A stretch of 64,000 nucleotides of DNA, from NCBI RefSeq assembly GCF_019192965.1, contig NZ_JAHTKU010000010.1:124001-188000 (forward strand), written 5' to 3'. Under the pieces are notes generated by a model, which was not told the origin of the DNA, ran no database searches, and worked only from the letters and a program-made list of their open reading frames with translations. Position 1 is the first letter of the stretch. Every line of letters starts with the position of its first letter. Below, piece by piece: positions 36,680 through 51,154 of this stretch. The position numbers and the translations under genes were made by a program. The stretch is from Nocardioides daeguensis. Its GTDB lineage: Bacteria; Actinomycetota; Actinomycetes; Propionibacteriales; Nocardioidaceae.

Positions 36680-37317
36680 GGCAGGCCGCTGTCGGACGGC
36701 TGGTCCGCCTGCTGGGCCGCGGCATAGAGCGCCGCGAGCACGATCAGCACCGCGAGCACGGCGACCAGGATGAAGGTCTCCCGGCGGTCCGCGCCCGGAC
36801 GGGGTGCGGTGGCCGGTGCTGCCGGTGCTGCCGGCACCGCCGGTGCGGCCGGTGCGGGCCGAGCAGCGGGCGGGGTCTCGGTCTCGGCCGCCGGTGCGGG
36901 TTCGGTCTCGGGAGCCGGTGCGGGCTCGGGCGTGACGGCCGCCGGTGCGGGCGCGGAGGAGCGGCGGCGCCGGCTGCGGCGGCGGTGCACGACCTCGTCG
37001 CCGAGGCCGGGGAACTCGCCGGCGCCCTCGAGCGGCTCGAAGCGCGGGATCGCGTGCTTGGTCACCACGACCCGGCGGAAGGCGTCGTGCTCGTCGTCGG
37101 GCAGCTCCTCGACGGGCTCGACGGGCTCGTCCACCTCGGTCTCCGGCCCGGCCTCCGGGCCCGCATCCGCCTCCGCGTCCGGCTCCGTGTCGGTCAGCGA
37201 CTCGAACCGCGGCACCTCGCGCGAGGGGATGAGCAGCGAGCGGAACTCGGCGTGCTCACGCGCCCGCTCCTCGGCACGGAGGAGGTCGCGAGGGTCGGTC
37301 GGGTCCGCAGCTGCCAC
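36631..37317 (-). CDS. Acidic, proline/alanine-rich single-span membrane protein
   Basis: This 228-residue protein is of unknown function. A cytoplasmic N-terminal part contains two similar short motifs, IPSREVPRFESL and VTKHAIPRFEPL, separated by an acidic Glu/Pro run. Then come a basic patch (VHRRRSRRRRSS), a Pro/Ala/Glu low-complexity linker, one membrane helix (TFILVAVLAVLIVLAALYAA) and a short outside tail. GTG 37317 is the likely start. Its last 49 nt overlap the convergent pdxH, so the final 16 codons are antisense to a conserved enzyme. Confidence 0.65.
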   Translation of the reverse strand: MAAADPTDPRDLLRAEERAREHAEFRSLLIPSREVPRFESLTDTEPDAEADAGPEAGPETEVDEPVEPVEELPDDEHDAFRRVVVTKHAIPRFEPLEGAGEFPGLGDEVVHRRRSRRRRSSAPAPAAVTPEPAPAPETEPAPAAETETPPAARPAPAAPAVPAAPAAPATAPRPGADRRETFILVAVLAVLIVLAALYAAAQQADQPSDSGLPQGASRVSSQPLDVRA

Positions 37318-37357
37318 GGGGCCATCCTCTCCGATCCGGCGCCTGCCTCGCTCCGGG

Positions 37358-37405
37358 GGTCGTGTGCCTGAGAACCCGCTACTGCGGGCTTTCCGGCACA
37401 CGACC
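37358..37405 (-). terminator. Nested hairpin ending the glycolipid-like cluster
   Basis: GGTCGTGTGCC (37358-37368) pairs with GGCACACGACC (37395-37405); inside it CCCGC (37375-37379) pairs with GCGGG (37384-37388). The stop codon of the last cluster gene lies inside the loop region. The structure probably stops the long minus-strand transcript before the gene at 37317. Confidence 0.7.
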
Positions 37406-38671
37406 TCCCGCGGCGCGGCCGAGGAGCCGGACGCGTACCTCGGCGGCGATGGTCTCGACGGCCGGCGCACGGGCGATGTCGGCGGCGAGCGTCTCGGCCC
37501 GGAGGCGGTACGACGGCTCGTCGAGCACCCGCCGCAGGGCAGCAGCGAGGTCGTCCGGCCGGCGTACCCGCACCGCGACCCCGGCGTCCACCAGGCGCAC
37601 CGCATGGTCGAACTGGTCGTAGTCGACCGGCCACACCACCGACGGCAGCCCGGCGGCGAGGGTGTGGCCGAGCACGCCGGCACCGCCGTGGTGGACGACC
37701 GCGGCGAAGCGCGGCAGGTCGCGGGCGTAGTCGACGTAGTCGTGCACCACCAGGCCGGGCGGCACCGCCCCGACCGGCCCCGAACCGACCGGCCCCGAAC
37801 CGCCCAGGCTGACGTGCACCTCGACGTCCGGCAGGGCTGCGGCCGCACGAGCCGCGCCGGCCACGAGGTCGCTCTTGTGCCAGGGCAGGTGGGTCCCTGC
37901 GGTCACCAGCACTGCTCGCCGCCCGGTGTCGAGCACCGGCGCGGCGAGTGGCGTGGGCGGGGTGTGCAGCACCGGGCCGACGTACCGCACCGCCGACGGC
38001 AGCGCCCGGGGGTACTCCACCGAGGCCGGGGTCAGGGCGAACACCCGCTCGGCGGAGTAGATCGTCTCCGAGCCGTCCGGGCGGTACTGGCGGGTGACGC
38101 CGACGTCGGCCAGCCGGACCCCGGCCAGCCGCGGTGCGAGCCGCTTGAACCCGCGCACCCACGACCGCCCGACGGCGTCGCGTGCCCGGCCGACCCGCGA
38201 GCGACCCGGCCGCCACCCGCCGAGGTACGACGGCGGTCCGGCCCGACCCTCGATCGCGCACGGCGAGGGGTGGGTGGTCCACCACGGCACGCCGATCTCG
38301 TCGGCGGCGGTGCCGACGGCGGCCATGGTGAAGTCCGCGATGACCAGGTCCGGTCGCTGCGCAGACCAGGCGGCGAGCAGCTCGCGGCGGAAGTCCGCCT
38401 GCAGCGCGAGTGCCGCGCGGAACTGGCGGAAGAGCAGGCGCGGGTTGCTCCCGATCCGGTACGGCGGGTTCACGACGGTCTCGATCACCTCGTCGGCGCC
38501 CTCGAGCAGGGCGACGCCGGTGACGCCGGACGCGGCGATCGCCGGCAGCGCGGCCGCCGTGCTGATCACCCGCACCTCGAGTCCCGGCTCGACCGCGAGC
38601 CGGGCGGCGACGCCCAGCACCGGATGCAGGTGGCCGGCCATCGGTGGTGTGACCAGGTCGACGCGTCTCAT
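37379..38671 (-). CDS. MGT/UGT-type glycosyltransferase (GT1 fold)
   Basis: This 430-residue glycosyltransferase is predicted to transfer a nucleotide-activated sugar to a lipid or small molecule. The N-terminal acceptor domain has RRVDLVTPPMAGHLHPVLGV. The C-terminal donor-binding domain carries the GT-B signature FAAVVHHGGAGVLGHTLAAG followed by PSVVWPVDYDQFDHAVRLVD, where HHGGAG and the D/Q pair contact the nucleotide sugar. A Gly/Pro/Val repeat (GSGPVGSGPVGAVPP) sits in a loop. It is the last gene of the minus-strand cluster; its ATG shares one base with the preceding stop codon. It probably adds the final sugar. Confidence 0.88.
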   Translation of the reverse strand: MRRVDLVTPPMAGHLHPVLGVAARLAVEPGLEVRVISTAAALPAIAASGVTGVALLEGADEVIETVVNPPYRIGSNPRLLFRQFRAALALQADFRRELLAAWSAQRPDLVIADFTMAAVGTAADEIGVPWWTTHPSPCAIEGRAGPPSYLGGWRPGRSRVGRARDAVGRSWVRGFKRLAPRLAGVRLADVGVTRQYRPDGSETIYSAERVFALTPASVEYPRALPSAVRYVGPVLHTPPTPLAAPVLDTGRRAVLVTAGTHLPWHKSDLVAGAARAAAALPDVEVHVSLGGSGPVGSGPVGAVPPGLVVHDYVDYARDLPRFAAVVHHGGAGVLGHTLAAGLPSVVWPVDYDQFDHAVRLVDAGVAVRVRRPDDLAAALRRVLDEPSYRLRAETLAADIARAPAVETIAAEVRVRLLGRAAGGRVPESPQ

Positions 38672-39234
38672 CACAGCTCCGTCACCAGCTCGGCCACCAG
38701 GTCGCCGCACAGCTCGGCGAGCGTCGGCGCGGCCAGGTAGTCGAGGTGGCCGGCGTCGACCTCGACGTCGTACGGCCACCAGCGCGCGAGGTGGTCGCCG
38801 CGGCTGCCGACCCGGATCGTGCGACAGGCCGGCGGCCGGGTGGCGACGGCGCCGTAGGCGACGACGGTGAGCCGATCCAGCACGTCCCCGGGCAGGTCGA
38901 GACGTCCCAGCAGGTCCAGCCCGATCGACCCGGCCAGCACGAGTGACCGGTCGGCGGCCCGCAGCTGCTCCTCGACCGTCGGCCGGTGCCGTCGCGCCCA
39001 CCGCCGGCCGAGCAGCCGGATCCGCCAGAACAGCACCAGGTGGCGCAGGCTGCCCAGCCACAGCGGCACCGGGCGGTACGGCGCCAGCCGGGCGTCGTAC
39101 GGGAAGTTGAGCCGGACCTTCGCCTGCTCCGGCAGCGCGAGACCGTCGAGGAAGGCGTGCTGGGCCGGCGAGAGCGCGCACGAGCGCGGGTCGCTCTGGC
39201 CGGTCAGGTGGAGCACCTGCAGGCGCGGGCTCAT
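38671..39234 (-). CDS. Unknown protein of the glycolipid-like cluster (alpha/beta fold likely)
   Basis: This 187-residue protein is of unrecognised family. It begins MSPRLQVLHLTGQSDPRSCA and has a hydrophobic segment VPLWLGSLRHLVLFWRIRLL. It also has DRSLVLAGSIGLDLLGRLDL and VVAYGAVATRPP strands that resemble the core of an alpha/beta hydrolase, with a Gly-Ser-Ile-Gly turn in place of a nucleophile elbow. A C-terminal His/Asp-containing stretch is VDAGHLDYLAAPTLAEL. It might be a small hydrolase or acyl/glycosyl-transfer accessory. It is coupled to both neighbours by stop/start overlaps. Confidence 0.65.
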   Translation of the reverse strand: MSPRLQVLHLTGQSDPRSCALSPAQHAFLDGLALPEQAKVRLNFPYDARLAPYRPVPLWLGSLRHLVLFWRIRLLGRRWARRHRPTVEEQLRAADRSLVLAGSIGLDLLGRLDLPGDVLDRLTVVAYGAVATRPPACRTIRVGSRGDHLARWWPYDVEVDAGHLDYLAAPTLAELCGDLVAELVTEL

Positions 39235-40430
39235 CGCACCGGGGAGAAGTCGTCGTCGGCACGCACCCGGTAGATGCGGGTGCGCCAGCGGATGGTGCGC
39301 TGCACGGCGCCGTGCCCGAGGTGCGCCGGCTGGACCAGCTCGGACACGAGCGAGGGCAGCGGTGCGTGCAGGGAACGCCCGTAGACCCGGCGGTGCACGA
39401 CCTGCAGCAGCAGCCACCGGCCGCCGAGCAGCGCCACCAGCGGACCGGGCCGGCGGGCCCGGGCCGAGCCGACCAGCACCGCCCAGAGCAGCGGGGGATG
39501 GGTGCCGTGCAGCACGCTGATCGCGGCCACGGTGCCGAGCGGCTGGCGGCGCAGCAACAGGTCGGCGAAGAGCATCCAGCGGTGCAGCAGCCGCACGTAG
39601 TGGCCGGGAGAGTCGACGGTCGTGGTGATCCACTGCGGCGACGCGGTCTGGCAGATCGTCCCGCCGCCGCGCTGCACCGCGCCGGCCACGGCGAGGTCGT
39701 CGGTCAGGTTGCGCAGGATCGGCGTGAACCCGCCGACCGCCCGCAGGTCCGCGACCCGCATCGCCCAGCACATCCCGTTGATCGTCACCGGCGCCATCGG
39801 CAGGTAGGTCAACGCCGCGTTGTTGTCGACGAACTGCTCGACGAGCCGTGCCCACGGCGTCCTCCCGGGCAGGTACGCCGGCAGGCCGGTCGCCAGCGTG
39901 GCTCGGTCGAGACCGCCGAGCAGTGCACCCAGGCTGGTGCGCGGCAGCCGGGTGTCGTCGTCGAGGACGAGGAACACCTCGTCGTCGGCGCAGTCCTCCA
40001 ACGCCGGCTGCAGCTTGGCGAGCTTGGGGTTGACGCCGTCCGGCGCCGGTGGGCAGAGCCGGACCTCGATGCGGGGTGCCGAGTCCCCCGAACCGTTCGA
40101 TCGAACGGTCAGGGGGAGGTCTGCGGCCGACATGTCCCCCGAACCGTTCGATCGAACGATTCGATCGACCACCCGCCGCCCCTCCGCGTCGTCCTCGTCG
40201 ACCAGCCACACGAACCGCGCTCCGGCCAGGGAGAGCAGGTTGTCGCGCAGCGCGTCCTCGAGGCCCGGGTCGCCGGACAGGATCGGCTGGACCACGACGA
40301 CCCGCGCGACGTCCTCGTCAGCGGGCTCCACCGCCGCGGGTGCCCGCGACGCGGCCCGCAGCGCAGCGACGGTCTTGCCGGCCTGCAGCGCGAGGTAGCC
40401 CGCCGCGGCGCCGCGCAACCAGTGGCTCAC
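39231..40430 (-). CDS. Family 2 glycosyltransferase, ceramide-glucosyltransferase/HpnI-like
   Basis: This 399-residue membrane-associated GT-A glycosyltransferase has an N-terminal helix SHWLRGAAAGYLALQAGKTV. The catalytic domain has VVVVQPILSGDPGLEDALRD, FVWLVDEDDAEGRRVVD, PKLAKLQPAL, EVFLVLDDDTRLPRTSL (D-x-D), NLTDDLAVAGAVQRGG and LLHRWMLF, resembling the D1-D2-D3-RW signature of processive and lipid-acceptor enzymes. C-terminal hydrophobic helices follow. Residues about 91-116 hold an in-frame duplicated segment (VRSNGSGD twice) made by a palindromic DNA repeat. GTG 40430 overlaps the epimerase stop by 4 nt. It is predicted to glycosylate a lipid-like product of the cluster. Confidence 0.82.
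   Translation of the reverse strand: MSHWLRGAAAGYLALQAGKTVAALRAASRAPAAVEPADEDVARVVVVQPILSGDPGLEDALRDNLLSLAGARFVWLVDEDDAEGRRVVDRIVRSNGSGDMSAADLPLTVRSNGSGDSAPRIEVRLCPPAPDGVNPKLAKLQPALEDCADDEVFLVLDDDTRLPRTSLGALLGGLDRATLATGLPAYLPGRTPWARLVEQFVDNNAALTYLPMAPVTINGMCWAMRVADLRAVGGFTPILRNLTDDLAVAGAVQRGGGTICQTASPQWITTTVDSPGHYVRLLHRWMLFADLLLRRQPLGTVAAISVLHGTHPPLLWAVLVGSARARRPGPLVALLGGRWLLLQVVHRRVYGRSLHAPLPSLVSELVQPAHLGHGAVQRTIRWRTRIYRVRADDDFSPVR
40083..40158. repeat. Intragenic 25-nt direct repeats carrying a 14-nt palindrome
   Basis: Two identical 25-nt copies (40083-40107 and 40134-40158) lie 51 nt apart, which is 17 codons, so the glycosyltransferase frame is kept. Each copy contains the perfect palindrome CGTTCGATCGAACG. 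The insertion falls in a loop between two predicted strands of the GT-A fold. Confidence 0.8.
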
Positions 40431-41401
40431 AGCCGCTCCTTCTGCCAGGCCACGAACTCCTCGACCCCCTGCGCAACCGGCACCGCCGGCGGGCCGAGGT
40501 CGCGCAGCATCTTGTCGGGCACGAACGTCTTGGACCACGAGAGCACCCCGACGCCGTACGGCGTGATGGGCGGCTCGCCCGGGAGGCGCAGCAGCCGCCA
40601 GGCCCGCTCGAGCACGCCGGCCGCGCGCATCGCGGTCGTGAGGCTGACCTCCCGCGTGGGCGGGGCGAAGCCGAGCCGGGCGATGACGTCGAGCAGCATC
40701 GCCTGGATCTCGACCGGCTCGGCGTTGGTGAGGTGGTAGACGCCGCCGAGCTCGGGTCGTCCGGCGAGCTGCAGCAGGTAGTCGGCGAGGTTGTCGACGT
40801 AGATCAGGTCGCCCACGGCCGGGGTGCTCCGCCCGGTCAACCGCGGCACCCGGCCTGCCTTCGCGGCCGCGATGATCCGGGGGAAGAGCACCGTGTCGCC
40901 GGGGCCGAAGACGGCGCGGGGACGGGCGATCACCCACGAACCGCCGTAGGTGCGGACGATTCCCTCCGAGGCCGCCTTGGTCCGGGCGTAGTCGTTGGCG
41001 AACTCCGTCGGCACCGGCGAGTCCTCGGTGAGGTCGAGCTGGTCGCCGTCGCGGTAGAGCACCGACGACGACGAGACGTGCACCAGCCGCGGGGCGCCGA
41101 GGCGCGCGCACCAGTCGACGACCGTCCGCGTGGCGGTCACGTTGTCACGCTCGTAGGCCTTGCGGGGCGCGTACGGCGTGGCCCGCGCTGCGCAGTGGAT
41201 CACCGCGTCCGGCCGCCACGGCAGCTCGGGCAGGTCCTCGGCCCCGACGACGCCGAGGTCGACGCTCAGGTAGCCCGGCCGGTCCAGCTTCCGCCGGCCG
41301 ATCCCGACCACCTCGTGCCCGGCCGCGGTCGCCCGCTCCCACAGTCGTCCGCCCACGAACCCGGACGCACCGGTCACCAGCAGTTTCACGGGGTGGGTCA
41401 T
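40427..41401 (-). CDS. NAD-dependent epimerase/dehydratase (3-beta-HSD-like)
   Basis: This is a 324-residue extended short-chain dehydrogenase. The cofactor motif is VKLLVTGASGFVGGRLWERA (GxxGxxG), the downstream signature is IHCAARA, and the catalytic triad is LVHVSSSSVLY (Ser) with YARTKAASEGIV (Tyr-x-x-x-Lys). Relatives include sugar-nucleotide epimerases and the OleD-type reductases that reduce beta-keto acids from OleA condensation. In a cluster with a KAS III-like enzyme a 3-keto reductase role is attractive, but a sugar epimerase is equally possible. ATG 41401 follows AGGAAGG and overlaps the upstream stop by 4 nt. Confidence 0.85.
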   Translation of the reverse strand: MTHPVKLLVTGASGFVGGRLWERATAAGHEVVGIGRRKLDRPGYLSVDLGVVGAEDLPELPWRPDAVIHCAARATPYAPRKAYERDNVTATRTVVDWCARLGAPRLVHVSSSSVLYRDGDQLDLTEDSPVPTEFANDYARTKAASEGIVRTYGGSWVIARPRAVFGPGDTVLFPRIIAAAKAGRVPRLTGRSTPAVGDLIYVDNLADYLLQLAGRPELGGVYHLTNAEPVEIQAMLLDVIARLGFAPPTREVSLTTAMRAAGVLERAWRLLRLPGEPPITPYGVGVLSWSKTFVPDKMLRDLGPPAVPVAQGVEEFVAWQKERL

Positions 41402-42651
41402 GACACCTTCCTGATCCGTCGTCGCTTCGCGTCGGGCGCCTGCACCGGCCACGCCATCGGTACGACGGCCGGTGCCGTCGTGCCCAACCGCTGCGCCAGC
41501 CGCCCGATCTCCGTGGCCACCCGCTGCGTCGCACCTGACGAACCGGTCGTGGTCGCCAGCCGCCACTCGGTGCCGTGCTGCTCGATCCGGTAGTCGCCGA
41601 GGTCCCCGGCCAGGGCGACCGTGTGACGCAGCACGTCGGGGTAGACGGGCACGTCGCCGAGGGTGAGCACATCGTCGGCCCGGCCGAGCACCGCGTGGAT
41701 GGAGCGACCCGGCCGCCCGCACGGGCAGGGGCCGGGAGCCGCGAGCAGGACGTCGTCGAGCCGGTGCCGCACGACGTACTGCGTGGTCCGGGTGAAGTCG
41801 GTGACGACGGGGTGGAAGCGCTGGTGGTCGATCCACTCGGGCTCGATGTGGACGTGCGCCTCGTTGAGGTGGAGCCGCCCGGCGGGGCAGCTGACCGCGA
41901 GCAGGCCCTCGGTGGCCTGGTAGATCTGCTCGACCGGTCGCCCGAACGCCTCCCGGACGACGGCCTCGTCGTCGGGCTCCAGGGTCTCCGCGACCGAGAC
42001 GACCTGCAACGGGCGCAGGCCCGCGGGGCGAGCCGCCGCGATCTGCCGGAGCACGCTCGCCGGCGCGACCAGCACGTCGGTCCCGGGCAGCGACGGCAGG
42101 TGCGCCGTCACCGGCAGCGTGAGGTCGTGCCACGAGAAGGAGACCCGGCGGCTCTCGAGGGTCTCGTAGAGGTTGCTGTTGGCGCGCAGGAACAGGGCGA
42201 TCCGCAGCGGCCGCCGCGCGAGCACGCGAAGGGAGCGAGGGGACATGAGCTGGCCCATCAGGATCCCTGCCCACAGGCGGCTCTCCGACTGCGAGACCAG
42301 GAAGACCCCGCGGGTGCCGGAGGTCCCCGAGGACAGCCCGACGGTCACCCCGCCGGGGAGCCGATCGGAGAAGGAGCGGGACCGCTCGGCCGCCTCGGCG
42401 ACGGCGAGCGCCCGGTCCAGCGTGATGCCGTGCCGGTTGAACGCGGCGAAGTCGGCGAGCACGGTCTGCTTGTCGACGACCGGCAGCTCGGAGAGCGGAC
42501 GACCCGCGAAAGGCGCGTAGAACCGGGCCTTCGGCAGCTCCACCCGGAGGAACCGGTCGAGCGCGCGGGCGCGCGCGGCGTCGTACCGGCGGGGGAGGAG
42601 CCAGCGCTCGCGGGCGAACGCGGCGGCCACCGCCGCCTGACCGTCCGACAC
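41398..42651 (-). CDS. F390-synthetase-like / PaaK-like adenylate-forming enzyme
   Basis: This is a 417-residue member of the adenylate-forming superfamily in the CapK/F390-synthetase-related branch. The phosphate-binding loop is VTVGLSSGTSGTRGVFLVSQ. The adenine-binding segment IYQATEGLLAVSCPAGRLHL and the hinge DVLTLGDVPVYPDVLRHTV are recognisable, and PCPCGRPGRSIHAVLGR supplies a Cys-x-Cys. Such enzymes activate a carboxylate as an acyl adenylate for ester, thioester or lactone formation. Substrate unknown. GTG 42651 lies 1 nt after the hydrolase stop. It is a core member of the cluster and probably activates a fatty or aromatic acid. Confidence 0.8.
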   Translation of the reverse strand: MSDGQAAVAAAFARERWLLPRRYDAARARALDRFLRVELPKARFYAPFAGRPLSELPVVDKQTVLADFAAFNRHGITLDRALAVAEAAERSRSFSDRLPGGVTVGLSSGTSGTRGVFLVSQSESRLWAGILMGQLMSPRSLRVLARRPLRIALFLRANSNLYETLESRRVSFSWHDLTLPVTAHLPSLPGTDVLVAPASVLRQIAAARPAGLRPLQVVSVAETLEPDDEAVVREAFGRPVEQIYQATEGLLAVSCPAGRLHLNEAHVHIEPEWIDHQRFHPVVTDFTRTTQYVVRHRLDDVLLAAPGPCPCGRPGRSIHAVLGRADDVLTLGDVPVYPDVLRHTVALAGDLGDYRIEQHGTEWRLATTTGSSGATQRVATEIGRLAQRLGTTAPAVVPMAWPVQAPDAKRRRIRKVS

Positions 42652-42652
42652 C

Positions 42653-43492
42653 TCAGGCCCCGGTGGACCAGGCCGCGTGGCCCTCCGGGCAGTGCGCCGG
42701 CAGGATCAGCAGGTCGTCGTGGGCGGCGTCGAGGGCGTGCAGCACGCCGAGGGTGCGCACCGTCGAGTCCCAGTCGTGCATGACGCCCTTCGCCAGCCGG
42801 GACGGCGGCCTGAGGTCGCGGAACGAGCGCGAGGTCCACGCGGCGTCGCCGACGAGGAGCACCTGCCGGCCGCCGGAGGTGAACAGCAGGCCGAGGTGGC
42901 CGGGCATGTGGCCGGGCAGGTCGACGGCGAGGAGGCTGCGGTCGCCGAGCAGGTCCCAGGTGCGCAGGCCGCCGACACTCACCTGTGCGAAGCCGTCCAC
43001 CGGGTCGAGGCGGTCGCGCAGGTCGCCGGGCAGCAGGGCAGGCAGGATCGCGTGCCGCACCGCGTTGATGCCGCGCAGCGACAGGGCGTGCTCGGCTCCG
43101 GAGGCACCCGCGATGATCCGGGCCCGCGGGTGGTCGAGCAGGCCACCGACGTGGTCGCCGTGGAAGTGCGAGACCACGATCCGGCGTACGTCGCCTGGGT
43201 CGATGTCGAGCGCCGCGAGCTGGCGCGGCAGGTGCTCCTCGGGGCGCAGCGTCACCGGCAGGGTGTTGCGGTAGAGCAGCTCCGGGAGCCGGCTGGTCGC
43301 GTCCAGGAAGTGCTGGGAGTAGCCGGTGTCGAACAGCGTCCAGCCGTGCTCGGGATGGTGCAGCGCCCCGACGTACGAGGGGAACTCGATGATCCGCAGC
43401 CGCCCGCCCTGGCGGGCCATCGCCTCGGGGCCCTTGCAGTGGCCGACGCGCAGCCAGTGGAAGGTGACCTCGGGCTGGTCGGTCAGTAGCAC
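42653..43492 (-). CDS. Metallo-beta-lactamase-fold hydrolase
   Basis: This 279-residue hydrolase carries the dinuclear zinc motif IVVSHFHGDHVGGLLDHPRA (H-x-H-x-D-H). Additional ligands lie in LLAVDLPGHMPGHLGLLF (His), VLLVGDAAWTSRSF (Asp) and LLILPAHCPEGH (His). The subgroup resembles lactonases and thioesterases. In the cluster it could release or hydrolyse a thioester or lactone made by the KAS III-like and adenylating enzymes. GTG 43492 begins 10 nt inside the upstream gene, so the genes are coupled. The N-terminus VLLTDQPEVTFHWLRVGHC has no signal peptide. Confidence 0.85.
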   Translation of the reverse strand: MLLTDQPEVTFHWLRVGHCKGPEAMARQGGRLRIIEFPSYVGALHHPEHGWTLFDTGYSQHFLDATSRLPELLYRNTLPVTLRPEEHLPRQLAALDIDPGDVRRIVVSHFHGDHVGGLLDHPRARIIAGASGAEHALSLRGINAVRHAILPALLPGDLRDRLDPVDGFAQVSVGGLRTWDLLGDRSLLAVDLPGHMPGHLGLLFTSGGRQVLLVGDAAWTSRSFRDLRPPSRLAKGVMHDWDSTVRTLGVLHALDAAHDDLLILPAHCPEGHAAWSTGA

Positions 43493-44481
43493 AGCACGAT
43501 CCCACCCATGCTGAGCCCGGCTCCGGTGCCGAGCAGGAGCGCGTGGTCGCCGCGCTGCAGCCGGCCGGACTCGATCGCGGCGTGCAGGGCCGACGGCAGC
43601 GAGGCTCCGACCTGGTTGCCGTGGTCGGCGTAGATGTCCACGAGGCGTCCCTCCTCGATGCCGAAGTGGTGCTGCACCCACGCGAGCGCGTGGTGGCTGG
43701 CCTGGTGGGGGACGACGACCGGCAGGTCCGCCATGGTGGTGCCGGCGGAGGTCAGCAGCCGGTCGACGAACGGCGGCAGGTGCTTGATCGCCAGCCGGAA
43801 CACCGCGCCGCCCTCCATCCGGAACCGGCCCCAGTCGGCGTACGCGCCCTCGACCCGGTCGGGTGCGAACCGTGAGCCGCCCCCGCGGATCTCGCAGGTG
43901 TGGGCGCCCTCGCTGAAGGTGGCGAAGTCGGCGGCGAGCACGGCCGAACCGGTCTGGCCGGCGGGCCCGACGACGGCCGCGGCGGCCCCGTCGCCGAAGA
44001 TCCCGGACGCGCCGAGGTCGGACCAGTCGAGGCCGACGGAGGCCAGGTCGCTGGAGACGATGAGGATCCGCTCGTGGCGGCCGGCGTCGACCAGGGTGGC
44101 GGCGAGGTCGAGCGCGACCAGGAAGCTCAGGCAGCTCGCGTTGACGTCCCAGGCCGCGATCGGCCGCTGGGGGGCGAGCTCCTCGTGCAGCAGCGCGGCG
44201 TTGTAGGGCAGCGGCTGGTCGGGGGTGGCGCTCGCGCCGATGATCACGTCGATGTCGTCGAGGGCGAGGCCGGCCGCCGCGAGGGCCTTGCGGGCCGCGC
44301 GGGCCCCGAGCTCTGCGGCGCTGCCGCGCTCGACGTACCGGACCCGGACGCCGGTCCGCTCCTCGACGGTGCCGGGCGCGAGCCCGAGGCGCTCGTCCAG
44401 CGCCGCGCTGGTGAGGGCCTCGTCGGGCAGCACCGCGCCCGTGCCGAGGATCCGCAGGGCACGGGGCCCGAGAGCTGGCAC
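43483..44481 (-). CDS. 3-oxoacyl-ACP synthase III-like condensing enzyme
   Basis: This 332-residue thiolase-fold enzyme carries out Claisen condensation of acyl thioesters. The triad is Cys117 (DVNASCLSFLVAL), His259 (VVVPHQASHHALAWVQHHFG) and Asn289 (ADHGNQVGAS), matching KAS III/FabH. The GDGAAAAVVG glycine loop is intact. Housekeeping FabH is normally in a fab operon, whereas this copy heads a cluster with an adenylating enzyme, a hydrolase, a reductase and two glycosyltransferases, so it is more likely a specialised starter or OleA-like enzyme. GTG 44481 follows the strong Shine-Dalgarno GAAGGAGG. It is the first gene of the run. Confidence 0.88.
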   Translation of the reverse strand: MPALGPRALRILGTGAVLPDEALTSAALDERLGLAPGTVEERTGVRVRYVERGSAAELGARAARKALAAAGLALDDIDVIIGASATPDQPLPYNAALLHEELAPQRPIAAWDVNASCLSFLVALDLAATLVDAGRHERILIVSSDLASVGLDWSDLGASGIFGDGAAAAVVGPAGQTGSAVLAADFATFSEGAHTCEIRGGGSRFAPDRVEGAYADWGRFRMEGGAVFRLAIKHLPPFVDRLLTSAGTTMADLPVVVPHQASHHALAWVQHHFGIEEGRLVDIYADHGNQVGASLPSALHAAIESGRLQRGDHALLLGTGAGLSMGGIVLCY

Positions 44482-44553
44482 GGAGGCCTCCTTCGTCGTG
44501 TGCCTCGGAGGATAGTCGGGCGCCAGTGGCCATCGGGACCGACGGTCCGGTGC

Positions 44554-45468
44554 CTACCGTCCGGCGTCGTCGAGGGCGGCCTTCGTCAGCGTCCGGCCGA
44601 GGTCGACCAGCTCCCCGGCGCGGTGGAAGTCGATGGTCCGGGCGGCGCTGAGCGGGACGGTGACGAGCACGTCGGGCGGCAGCGTGGCCAGGCGGTAGCG
44701 GGTGATCAGGCTCTGCATCGCGTCGAAGGCGAGCGACACCACCTCGGCGGTCCGCACGTCCGGGCGTACGTCGACCGCGTCGGCCGGCGGCGCCTCCGCG
44801 GGCGCCTCGGGCGACTCGGTGAGCTCCTCCTCGCCGCGCCGGAACCGGCGCCGCAAGTCGGCCGCCCACTCCGCGCGGCGTACCGAGAAGCCGCGCGCCG
44901 GGGAGGTCGGCTCGTGCGGCTCGCGCGGGCCCTGCAGGGAGACGGCGACGGTGAAGTCGGCGGTCGCGGCCGCGGTGGGCTCGAGGGGCAGCGGGTTGAG
45001 CAGACCGCCGTCGACGAGGACCCGGCCGTCGACCACGGCCGGTGTGAACAGGCCGGGGATGGCGAAGGAGGCCCGCATCGCGGGAATGAGCGGCCCACGC
45101 TGGAACCACACCTCGCGGCGGGCGGCGAGGTCGGTCGCGACCGCGGTGAACGGGATCGGCAGCGACTCGATGAGAACGTCGCCGACGATCTCGTCGAGCG
45201 CGGCCATCAGCTTCTCCGCCGTCGCGGCGCCGCCGCCGGTCCACGTGGGGTCGGCCAGGCGCACCACGCGACGCCCGGTCAGCGTCGAGGCCCAGGCGGT
45301 GAAATCGGCGTCCTTCCCGGCGGCGACCAAGCCGCCGACGACGGCACCCATCGACGTACCCGAGACCGCGACGATCTCGTGACCGCGTTCGCGCAGCTCC
45401 TGGACCGCGCCGAGGTGGGCATACCCGCGGGCACCCCCGGAACCGAGAACGAGAGCGACACGGGCCAT
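44554..45468 (-). CDS. Patatin-like phospholipase (RssA-type)
   Basis: This is a 304-residue serine lipase/acyl hydrolase. The oxyanion loop is GSGGARGYAHLGAVQEL, the nucleophile elbow is VSGTSMGAVVGG (G-x-S-x-G), and the catalytic Asp is in VLVDGGLLNPLPLEP. A C-terminal extension (TAEVVSLAFDAMQSLITRYR) follows a Pro/Glu-rich linker. It may cleave membrane lipids or the lipid product of the adjacent cluster. ATG 45468 has a CACAAT box 6 nt upstream. It is on the same strand as the cluster, 72 nt before its first gene, and so may belong to it or be independently transcribed. Confidence 0.88.
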   Translation of the reverse strand: MARVALVLGSGGARGYAHLGAVQELRERGHEIVAVSGTSMGAVVGGLVAAGKDADFTAWASTLTGRRVVRLADPTWTGGGAATAEKLMAALDEIVGDVLIESLPIPFTAVATDLAARREVWFQRGPLIPAMRASFAIPGLFTPAVVDGRVLVDGGLLNPLPLEPTAAATADFTVAVSLQGPREPHEPTSPARGFSVRRAEWAADLRRRFRRGEEELTESPEAPAEAPPADAVDVRPDVRTAEVVSLAFDAMQSLITRYRLATLPPDVLVTVPLSAARTIDFHRAGELVDLGRTLTKAALDDAGR

Positions 45469-45490
45469 GGCCCCATTGTGGGTCCCCAGC

Positions 45491-45578
45491 GTTGAGTTGC
45501 CGGAAACTCGCCGTTGAGCTTCCCCATCCTCGCCGTTGAGTTGCCACAAGCTCGCCGTTGAGCTTCGCCATCCTCGCC
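45491..45578. repeat. Left array: four contiguous 22-nt repeats
   Basis: Units 45491-45512, 45513-45534, 45535-45556 and 45557-45578 all begin GTTGAG and end CTCGCC. They alternate between type A (GTTGAGTTGCC) and type B (GTTGAGCTTC). A degenerate fifth unit follows. There are no spacers, so this is not a CRISPR array. Confidence 0.85.
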
Positions 45579-45616
45579 CTCGAGTCGCCGACTGTCCTGC
45601 GGACGGGGGCAGCTCG

Positions 45617-45726
45617 AGGGACGACGGGGCAGGTCGACCTGAAGTCAGGGGAAGCTCAACGGGGAGTTCCCGGCAGGTCACCGGCGAGTTCCCGGCAGGT
45701 CAACGGTGAGTTTGCGGCAGGTCAAC
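45617..45726. repeat. Right array: five contiguous 22-nt repeats, opposite orientation
   Basis: Units of exactly 22 nt at 45617-45638, 45639-45660, 45661-45682, 45683-45704 and 45705-45726 read GTTGACCTGCCG or close variants on the minus strand. They mirror the left array about a centre near 45598. With the left array they fill most of the 304-nt gap between patatin and tetR. Confidence 0.85.
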
Positions 45727-45736
45727 GTGAATTCGC

Positions 45737-45765
45737 TTGTGAGTGAGTACTCACTCACTTACGCT
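45737..45765 (+). promoter_or_regulatory. Autoregulated tetR promoter with palindromic operator
   Basis: TTGTGA (45737-45742) and TACGCT (45760-45765) are separated by 17 nt. The perfect 20-nt palindrome GTGAGTGAGTACTCACTCAC (45739-45758) fills the spacer. TACGCT ends 7 nt before ATG 45773, so the transcript is probably leaderless and would be blocked by its own TetR product. Confidence 0.75.
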
Positions 45766-45772
45766 GGCGGGC

Positions 45773-46357
45773 ATGCCCCCGCGTGCCGCCCCGCTGTCCG
45801 CCGAGGACCGACGGGAGATGTTGATCCGGGCGACCCGGCCGCTGCTCTACGAGCACGGGCGCCGGGTCACCACGCGGCTGATCGCCGAGGCGGCGGGGGT
45901 CGCGGAGGGCACGATCTTCCGGGTCTTCGAGTCCAAGGACGACCTGCTCGACGCCACCGTCGCCCGCGCCTTCGAGCCCGGCGACGTGCTGGACCGCCTC
46001 GACGGGATCGACCCCGCCCTGCCGCTGCGCGAGAGGATGGTCGCGATGACCTCGATCCTGCAGCAGCGGTTCCTGGCAATCTTCGAGCTGATGCGCGCCC
46101 TCGGCGCGGTCGGCCCGCCCCAGCACCTCCACGACCGGCCCGAGCTCGTCGCGGGCCTGGAGGAGGTACGACGCCGGCTGCTCGCGCTGATCGAGCCCGA
46201 TGCCGACCGGCTGACCCTGCCGCCCGAGCAGGTGCTCCACGTGTGGCGGCTGCTCACCTTCGCCGGCTCCCACCGGGAGATCGCCGACAACGACCTGCTC
46301 ACCCCGACCCTGATCGTCGACACCGTGCTGCACGGCGTCGAGAGGAGAGACTGCTGA
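45773..46357 (+). CDS. TetR-family repressor of the ABC exporter operon
   Basis: This 194-residue regulator has an N-terminal TetR helix-turn-helix (residues about 12-58: REMLIRATRPLLYEHGRRVT, then TRLIAEAAGVAEGTIFRVFE and SKDDLLDATV). The C-terminal helical ligand pocket is variable. It is the first gene of a three-gene operon: its stop shares one base with the ABC start. The perfect palindrome in its promoter is the expected operator, giving autorepression relieved by a substrate of the exporter (inference from the common actinobacterial design). Confidence 0.9.
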   Translation: MPPRAAPLSAEDRREMLIRATRPLLYEHGRRVTTRLIAEAAGVAEGTIFRVFESKDDLLDATVARAFEPGDVLDRLDGIDPALPLRERMVAMTSILQQRFLAIFELMRALGAVGPPQHLHDRPELVAGLEEVRRRLLALIEPDADRLTLPPEQVLHVWRLLTFAGSHREIADNDLLTPTLIVDTVLHGVERRDC

Positions 46358-50931: not shown

Positions 50932-50963
50932 GGTCGCACACGGGAAAGGAGGTGGTCCGAAGA

Positions 50964-51002
50964 ATGAGTTCTTCCAGGACGCGTGAGGTGGCTGCCCGCT
51001 AG
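50964..51002 (+). CDS. 12-residue leader peptide MSSSRTREVAAR with an extreme Shine-Dalgarno
   Basis: ATG 50964 to TAG 51002 encodes MSSSRTREVAAR. It is preceded by AAAGGAGGTGGTCC (50945-50958), complementary to 14 nt of the 16S rRNA 3' end except for one G-U wobble. Genes seldom have such a long match. The promoter upstream and the structured RNA downstream (51047-51108) suggest a translated regulatory leader for the MFS/MarR operon. I do not recognise a published family for it with certainty. Confidence 0.6.
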   Translation: MSSSRTREVAAR

Positions 51003-51046
51003 CAGCCCCGCAGTTCAGGCTGCGCGCGAATCCAACGCAGCCACCC

Positions 51047-51108
51047 GACCCGCAGGTGAAACCGGGATCGTCCCCCGGCCCGGTCCGCACGGACCGCACC
51101 TGCGGGTC
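51047..51108 (+). other. Structured RNA element between leader peptide and MFS gene
   Basis: GACCCGCAGGTG (51047-51058) pairs perfectly with CACCTGCGGGTC (51097-51108). A second hairpin, CGGTCC/GGACCG around GCAC (51081-51096), stacks directly against the closing arm. The compact two-stem fold starts 45 nt after the leader-peptide stop and could be a terminator/anti-terminator or ligand-binding leader. Confidence 0.6.
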
Positions 51109-51154
51109 GTTCGCTGTCACGGGCCGGTCGGCGAGGTCGAGCACCGCTCCACTG

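Follow-up and report, generated by a model that had tools for sequence, protein, structure and literature searches.

In the OleABCD pathway, which leads to olefins and β-lactones, a condensing enzyme, an adenosine monophosphate (AMP)-forming enzyme, a hydrolase and an OleD-type reductase are encoded in one operon; OleA releases its product as a free β-keto acid, and OleD acts on that β-keto acid. PqsA-PqsD-PqsE, from the Pseudomonas quinolone signal (PQS) route, brings together an acid-activating enzyme, a β-ketoacyl synthase III (KAS III) and a metallo-β-lactamase (MBL)-fold hydrolase, and is not known to include an OleD-like reductase or glycosyltransferases. A third point of comparison is the pair MxnB and CorB, described in one study (PMC4578411) as joining two chains without a glutamate of the OleA type; they carry a valine at its place, which Kresovic et al. 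explain by a more acidic nucleophile, and the same study assigns them to the FabH clade. Here, we analyzed a seven-gene operon in a 64,000-nucleotide stretch of Nocardioides daeguensis DNA (contig NZ_JAHTKU010000010.1, positions 124,001 to 188,000; hereafter the window), which encodes a KAS III-type condensing enzyme, an MBL-fold hydrolase, an adenylating enzyme (adenylator), a reductase, two glycosyltransferases and a protein of 187 amino acids (aa). We tentatively read this operon as the glycosylating flavor of a widespread four-gene core that would make a two-chain β-hydroxy acid scaffold.

The four-gene core and its finishing modules

All seven genes lie on the minus strand of the window between positions 37379 and 44481 and are tightly packed: stop and start codons overlap at five of the six junctions, and a 1-bp gap separates the MBL gene from the adenylator gene. 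These coordinates bear out the arrangement of seven near-touching genes described in the original prediction, and the motifs quoted there (the KAS triad, HxHxDH, SSGTSGT and YxxxK) are all present in the window proteins. The adenylator was the only bait: a search of plasmids matched 26 records, six of which were taken up, and genome contigs were scanned once. The 90 loci compared are the window, six plasmid loci (L024-L029), three genome regions (L030-L032) and the best 80 of 563 relatives (L033-L112), a collection that is not an unbiased sample. KAS, reductase, MBL and adenylator genes occur together in 72 of the 90. The 18 loci without the full core are L028; L032, L072, L088, L089, L100, L101 and L108, which are on short or cut contigs; L084, L092 and L102, in which no KAS was found (the L084 contig is cut 6 kb upstream); L111, which has no MBL; and six loci with a KAS of another type, described below. 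L028, on a megaplasmid of Pseudomonas amygdali, holds the adenylator alone of the core four, near an ATP-grasp-type gene.

The full four-gene core is present in Actinomycetota, Acidobacteriota, Gemmatimonadota, Verrucomicrobiota, Bacillota, Campylobacterota and Pseudomonadota, and three of its four genes in Cyanobacteriota. The full seven-gene set was found in 17/90 loci, from Actinomycetota, Acidobacteriota, Gemmatimonadota, Verrucomicrobiota, Pseudomonadota and Bacillota. When the four genes are compared over the 72 core loci, correlations between their pairwise distance matrices are 0.81-0.92, against at most 0.17 in 500 permutations, and host kinship contributes to these values. Because the genes co-occur across loci, the operon is no accident, and this conservation across phyla speaks for the shared pathway that the original prediction had proposed; of the three outcomes named there as refuting it, none came about. 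A search of titles and abstract beginnings in the open-licence literature found no publication that describes the cassette; other publications may describe it.

At least one of three sets of tailoring genes accompanies the core in 64/72 loci. The most frequent comprises ATP-grasp, GNAT or Rieske genes (30/72), followed by the GT-A glycosyltransferase, 187-aa protein and GT-B glycosyltransferase of the window (17/72) and by PAP2, fatty acid hydroxylase or fatty acid desaturase genes (12/72). Glycosyltransferase genes without the 187-aa protein occur in four loci (L039; L041; L105, which has no GT-B match; and L075, with only a GT-B-like match); one locus combines glycosyltransferase genes with the PAP2 set, and eight have none of the three sets. 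One representative of each gene type was compared with Pfam, which confirmed those of the Rieske, desaturase, hydroxylase, PAP2 and sulfotransferase genes; for those of ATP-grasp and GNAT it gave no match at 0.001, and these two names come from the annotation of the records. Tailoring sets this nearly exclusive would be expected if a single scaffold received different finishes.

The condensing enzyme and its hydrolase partner

The KAS of the window (332 aa, 43483-44481, minus strand) has the triad Cys117, His259 and Asn289, which is invariant in all 77 sequences aligned (77 of 79 KAS-bearing loci; two with broken frames were left out). At the place of the catalytic glutamate of OleA (Glu117 of the X. 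campestris enzyme), 71/77 sequences have Leu, Met or Ile, Leu91 in the window, and 6/77 have Glu. In profile searches against solved relatives, the KAS scored 331 bits with MxnB, 321 with CorB, 270 with the best FabH, 173 with PqsD and 117 with the best OleA. Its best NCBIfam model was PRK07204 (345.6 bits, under the cut-off of 402). On PRK09258 (cut-off 285) it reached 104 bits, compared with 517 for Shewanella OleA; on the FabH model TIGR00747 (cut-off 292.1) it reached 201 bits, compared with 372.8 for a separate FabH of the same genome. The window KAS is 96% identical to that of Pimelobacter simplex.

In a tree of 49 rows (43 of the 77 KAS and 6 references), the cluster KAS, the glutamate-bearing ones apart, form one group with MxnB and CorB (98/98) that is separate from FabH and OleA; support for the grouping with MxnB and CorB was 83/90 in a smaller tree (28 KAS and 6 references). 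An approximately unbiased (AU) test on the smaller set gave p 0.055 for a tree in which the window KAS alone joins OleA. A housekeeping FabH is rejected, as the genome has a separate FabH over the cut-off and the tree sets the two apart; the original prediction had named a grouping with FabH among the outcomes that would refute a shared pathway. OleA is rejected as well, given the missing glutamate and the nearer solved relatives. Judged by sequence, MxnB and CorB appear to be the nearest characterized relatives, with the trees compatible with a branching inside, beside or outside the cluster KAS. They are the best PDB matches and share with the window KAS the Cys-His-Asn triad, the NASC motif around the cysteine and a hydrophobic residue at the place of the OleA/PpyS glutamate. 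However, MxnB and CorB serve polyketide synthase (PKS) assembly lines, whereas the window KAS sits with a reductase, an MBL and an adenylator, and the operon has no carrier protein.

The MBL-fold hydrolase (279 aa, 42653-43492, minus strand) must start near 43492, since a start at the ATG at 43420 would lose the conserved residues G17 and C19, which are encoded upstream of it. Its zinc site H109-x-H111-x-D113-H114, together with H195, D216 and H267, is conserved at 95% identity or more at each position over 78 loci. N-acyl homoserine lactone (AHL) lactonases are its nearest relatives by profile (89 bits), and the thioesterase PqsE scored 26-27 bits. The protein has the HxHxDH zinc site of the AiiA/AttM lactonase family and scored 61 bits against the family cut-off of 390. 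At the place of AiiA Tyr194, aligned by eye, 74/78 sequences have Trp, as in the window, and 4/78 have Tyr; we take Tyr194 to have a catalytic role in AiiA and to correspond to this Trp place. The protein is thus placed in the AHL-lactonase branch and would be a thioester or lactone hydrolase.

The KAS with a glutamate come from six actinobacterial loci of about 9.9-15.6 kb, one in Psychromicrobium (L071) and the others in Microbacteriaceae (L079, L080, L087, L091 and L098). All six have the OleA glutamate in an IEPATS motif, and the two placed in a tree (L071 and L080) group with OleA (100/99). The adenylators of the four loci tested (L071, L079, L080 and L091) fall within a 100/99 group that includes the window, in a tree of 38 of the 90 adenylators, and the reductases of the three Herbiconiux loci tested belong to the same clade as that of the window, the downstream clade described below. 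In the DNA available, the MBL gene was found in 0/6 of these loci, compared with 72/73 of the other KAS loci (it is missing in L111); of these 73, the 71 aligned all lack the glutamate. Because the loci with a glutamate-bearing, OleA-side KAS go without the MBL, and OleA releases its own product, the MBL may be the release enzyme, and the simplest reading is that it supplies the β-keto acid release in the main form of the cassette. In L080, genes for a cytochrome P450 and a zinc alcohol dehydrogenase (Pfam) come next, and similar genes occur in most of the other OleA-side loci. We regard these loci as a second system that shares parts with the window cassette.

Adenylator, reductase and glycosylating enzymes

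The adenylator (417 aa, 41398-42651, minus strand) is of the PaaK/CapK type. It scored 298.6 bits on TIGR02304 ('F390 synthetase-related protein'), above the cut-off of 251.9, and its relatives in the PDB are PaaK-like. The SSGTSGT loop is present in the window protein; over the 90 loci, G105, S107, G109, T110, G112 and Lys409 reach 95% conservation, and the second and third serines of the loop fall below that level. A profile comparison with Shewanella OleC was negative, which is weak as a test. By these matches, the adenylator is assigned to the PaaK/F390 group and not to the OleC family. We know of no tested function behind the name of TIGR02304, which implies no role in coenzyme F390. Where published reports mention 'F390 synthetase' (PMC12304814, PMC5724707, PMC5467263, PMC5501837, PMC2649909 and PMC9823363), the mentions are mostly annotation lists or expression changes; one row of a transposon-mutant table names it (PMC9823363), and an acyl-coenzyme A (CoA) ligase-like gene is placed within ladderane candidate clusters (PMC2649909).

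The reductase (324 aa, 40427-41401, minus strand) is an extended short-chain dehydrogenase/reductase that resembles OleD and sterol-4-carboxylate dehydrogenases, and its Y138-x-x-x-K142 motif is conserved across loci. The two OleD models gave the best scores (152.5 and 129 bits), followed by HpnA (79) and GalE (40); the score of 152.5 is below the OleD cut-off of 580, though OleD is the best family at about twice the next. These scores run counter to a placement with sugar-nucleotide enzymes, which the original prediction had named among the outcomes that would refute a shared pathway. Identity to Shewanella OleD, which itself scored 563 bits on the Shewanella model, is 26%. The NCBIfam name of OleD is 2-alkyl-3-oxoalkanoate reductase, and the top solved relative, a sterol-4-alpha-carboxylate dehydrogenase, is likewise a β-keto/β-hydroxy acid enzyme.

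The reductase tree was built with 51 rows from 49 of 86 loci and 3 references; two of three outgroups from the window's own genome were dropped, as were rows more than 5.5 kb from the adenylator, which removed L071. The reductases encoded downstream, window included, form a clade of 20 rows (100/100). The others are encoded ahead of the adenylator, in most cases between KAS and MBL; the tree does not show them as a single clade and puts OleD among them without a resolved branching. Both forms occur in Buttiauxella (L096) and Klebsiella (L093), with the second form adjoining the glycosyltransferases. The downstream form is found without glycosyltransferases in three Verrucomicrobiota loci (L043, L052 and L059), and glycosyltransferases are found with the upstream form in L081, L084 and L112. 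Because L093 and L096 hold both forms and other loci mix them, the reductase forms look exchangeable and the glycosyltransferase set is a module.

The GT-A glycosyltransferase (39231-40430, minus strand), with a start best read as the GTG at 40430, matched Pfam GT21 and is HpnI-like, with conserved DDD, DD and RW motifs; the GT-B glycosyltransferase (37379-38674, minus strand) is EryCIII/macrolide-like, both by Pfam and NCBIfam scans. Within the GT-A gene, a palindrome-bearing repeat, TCGATCGAACGGTTCGGGGG, lies at window positions 40085-40155; the genome has 16 copies with at most one mismatch, compared with none of a reversed control pattern. Two copies keep the reading frame of the GT-A gene and account for about 25 residues that a distant relative such as L038 lacks; shadow frames in L033 and L035 suggest the same insertion.

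The 187-aa protein (38671-39234, minus strand), listed as unrecognized in the original prediction, still has no Pfam or NCBIfam match, and a Pfam scan of its family gave nothing credible; it can now be predicted to be a minimal α/β hydrolase. Its presence in 18 loci was set by hand (16 plus L081 and L112), as shadow reading frames gave false positives in L039 and L041 and a wrong frame in L033. In the family alignment, S103, D147 and H163 are invariant in 15/15 sequences, with S103 in an AGSxG elbow that departs in the A and G in one row. The AlphaFold model has a mean predicted local distance difference test score (pLDDT) of 92.3 and a predicted template-modeling score (pTM) of 0.89. Foldseek ranked Bacillus lipase A and a lipase of A. 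fulgidus best (E 5e-3 to 7e-3), with no match at 1e-3 or below; VIA-align matched the model to the A. fulgidus lipase with Z 13.4 over 157 residues (3.2 Å) and to B. subtilis lipase A with Z 11.2. The reading as an α/β hydrolase is based on this fold match. The fold and the order of Ser, Asp and His are common to these lipases and the 187-aa protein, but identity is only about 12-16%. Conservation and order make S103-D147-H163 a candidate triad.

Proposed pathway and genomic setting

From the observed gene content, gene order, protein families, conserved residues, co-occurrence and exchange of KAS type, we infer every reaction, the reaction order and the product as follows. A β-keto- or malonyl-type thioester would attack the acyl group bound to the KAS cysteine, joining two acyl chains into a β-ketoacyl thioester, from which the MBL would free the β-keto acid. 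The OleD-like reductase would turn this acid into a 2-alkyl-3-hydroxy acid, and the PaaK-like adenylator would activate it for a next step toward an ester, thioester or lactone. In the window flavor, GT-A and GT-B may glycosylate the scaffold, and the small α/β hydrolase may remove or move an acyl group. The glycosylated product of the original prediction would fit this flavor, which has both glycosyltransferases, and not the core, which has other finishing sets elsewhere; because glycosyltransferases are one of several such sets, 'glycolipid' names the flavor only.

The proposal of two chains joined by the core must be set against several observations. A KAS of the cluster family was not found in the available DNA of 11/90 loci, and the contigs of L092 and L102 are not cut nearby. 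AU tests on the smaller KAS set rejected neither a cluster-only clade (p 0.243) nor a grouping of MxnB and CorB with FabH (p 0.128). In a single-sequence PDB search, the L080 KAS scored higher with FabH (117 and 108 bits) than with OleA (105) and MxnB (36), so that its affinity to OleA rests on the glutamate and the tree. The covariation of KAS type and MBL is probably one evolutionary event and counts as one observation. For the MBL, 'lactonase' is as well founded as 'thioesterase', because the AHL lactonases outscore PqsE. Finally, the window adenylator matched neither of the two NCBIfam OleC (olefin β-lactone synthetase) models nor Pfam AMP-binding; as a control, Shewanella OleC matched the best OleC model at 921 bits and AMP-binding at 168 bits.

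An unlikely alternative would follow the PQS logic: the PaaK-like ligase would make the CoA ester of an aryl or fatty acid, the KAS would condense it with malonyl-CoA, and the MBL would act as a β-ketoacyl-CoA thioesterase, as in PqsA-PqsD-PqsE, before the reductase gave a β-hydroxy acid with a single chain. The same three enzyme classes occur together, PaaK-type relatives often act on aryl acids, the KAS lacks the OleA glutamate as does FabH in the same alignment, and both PqsE and PqsD are among the relatives of the window proteins. However, the KAS is far closer to MxnB and CorB than to PqsD and the MBL closer to lactonases than to PqsE, so both appear to belong to other subfamilies than their PQS counterparts, and this route leaves the OleA-side KAS of six loci and the OleD-like reductase unexplained. 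The nearest solved and characterized KAS relatives are pyrone synthases and the MBL is in the lactonase branch, which would suit an α-pyrone or butenolide route, in which the KAS makes a pyrone like MxnB and CorB, and the pyrone is then remodeled or opened by the reductase and the lactonase-like MBL ahead of glycosylation. We consider this improbable: the seven proteins include no carrier protein or PKS, pyrones do not need an OleD-type reductase, and an OleA-side KAS can stand in.

A canonical Ole pathway whose oleB and oleC are missing or have moved is very hard to sustain, though an OleD-like reductase and a thiolase-fold KAS would speak for it. The KAS lacks the equivalent of Glu117, the adenylator matches no OleC model, the core hydrolase is not OleB-like, and the reductase is below the OleD cut-off; we disfavor it on these features. 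In Shewanella surugensis, the core and an Ole set (921 bits on the OleC model, over the cut-off) lie on different contigs, and the two are separate systems because both are present there. The likeness to OleABCD extends from the enzyme classes in one operon to the six relatives with a glutamate-bearing KAS; the differences are the KAS without the glutamate, the PaaK-type adenylator, the MBL in place of the OleB α/β hydrolase, and the glycosyltransferases. The 187-aa α/β hydrolase gave no profile match to the protein at the OleB position in Shewanella, and its gene is also missing from the other flavors. The original prediction of a parallel or derived Ole route therefore survives in the parallel logic and the nearest relative of the reductase, and is not supported for the KAS and the adenylator; its suggestion that a hydrolase of another fold replaces OleB is set aside, as the MBL more likely replaces the thioester release of OleA itself. 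The cassette, read as a maker of two-chain β-hydroxy acids, is a relative of the Ole pathway in logic, not membership.

In the Nocardioides genomes, the operon sits between pdxH and a pair of ABC transporter genes. TIGR02304 was over the cut-off in 3/40 genomes of the genus, all three of which carry the full operon, and in 1/396 genomes of a phylum sample, the window's own; at E 1e-40, the sample gave 2/396 including the own genome, the second (G401) being just under the cut-off at 243.7 bits. Among 38 genomes with both genes on one contig (two further genomes gave no ABC match), the three carriers have a distance of 10.8-12.0 kb from pdxH to the second ABC gene, whereas it does not exceed 4 kb in 22/38 and falls between 4 and 10 kb in 11/38; it is 12.3 kb in G462, which has no adenylator, and the two genes are far apart in G028. 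This variable distance and the few carriers mark the operon as an optional insertion into a site that is both conserved and variable. The site, which spans about 1.8 to 12.3 kb in 37/38 genomes, looks like a hot spot for optional genes.

Upstream of the operon, as originally predicted, lies a gene for an RssA-like patatin phospholipase (44554-45468, minus strand), which is outside the conserved gene set. It adjoins the operon in 4/7 Nocardioidaceae loci (the window, L031, L034 and L035), not in L030 and L036, and the L033 contig is cut there; we rejected it as a pathway member, as it is beside the operon only in this family. In E. coli, rssA lies near the core, separated from it by purU and ychJ. 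A short repeat, GAAGCTCAACGGCGAG, is present in four copies (at most two mismatches) at window positions 45507-45666, upstream of the patatin gene, a number reached in 0/100 shuffles. A scan of 37000-46000 gave no consensus sigma-70 promoter and no intrinsic terminator, which says little for the host organism. Further along the window, a match to the actinobacterial small RNA Ms_IGR-5 lies at 50938-51115 (108.3 bits).

The core is also found in E. coli. In strains ATCC 25922 and Nissle 1917 (L140 and L141), it lies with the PAP2, hydroxylase and desaturase genes, seven genes in all, between narI and tyrT/purU; in KE48, the same genes are beside narI on a replicon filed as a plasmid. The adenylator, searched alone, was found in 672 of 5426 complete E. 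coli genomes, with 670 places on chromosomes, and the core with the PAP2, hydroxylase and desaturase genes was complete in all three records opened (KE48, ATCC 25922 and Nissle 1917).

With some doubt, we put forward the possibility of one lipid pathway shared across phyla, which the literature search did not turn up, in which two chains are joined by a MxnB/CorB-type enzyme, released by an MBL, finished by OleD-like and PaaK-type enzymes and then modified by lineage-specific modules: sugars in the window, ATP-grasp/GNAT/Rieske enzymes in Pseudomonas, hydroxylation and desaturation in Nissle-type E. coli and possibly sulfation in Rhodobacterales. Because the KAS type changes where the MBL is lost, the role of the MBL can be predicted concretely, and the E. 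coli form, which is present in the probiotic Nissle 1917, offers a tractable strain in which to test directly for the product. If the pathway is as proposed, its product would represent a bacterial lipid or signal of a new class, and the cassette may be the source from which the pyrone synthases MxnB and CorB were drawn.

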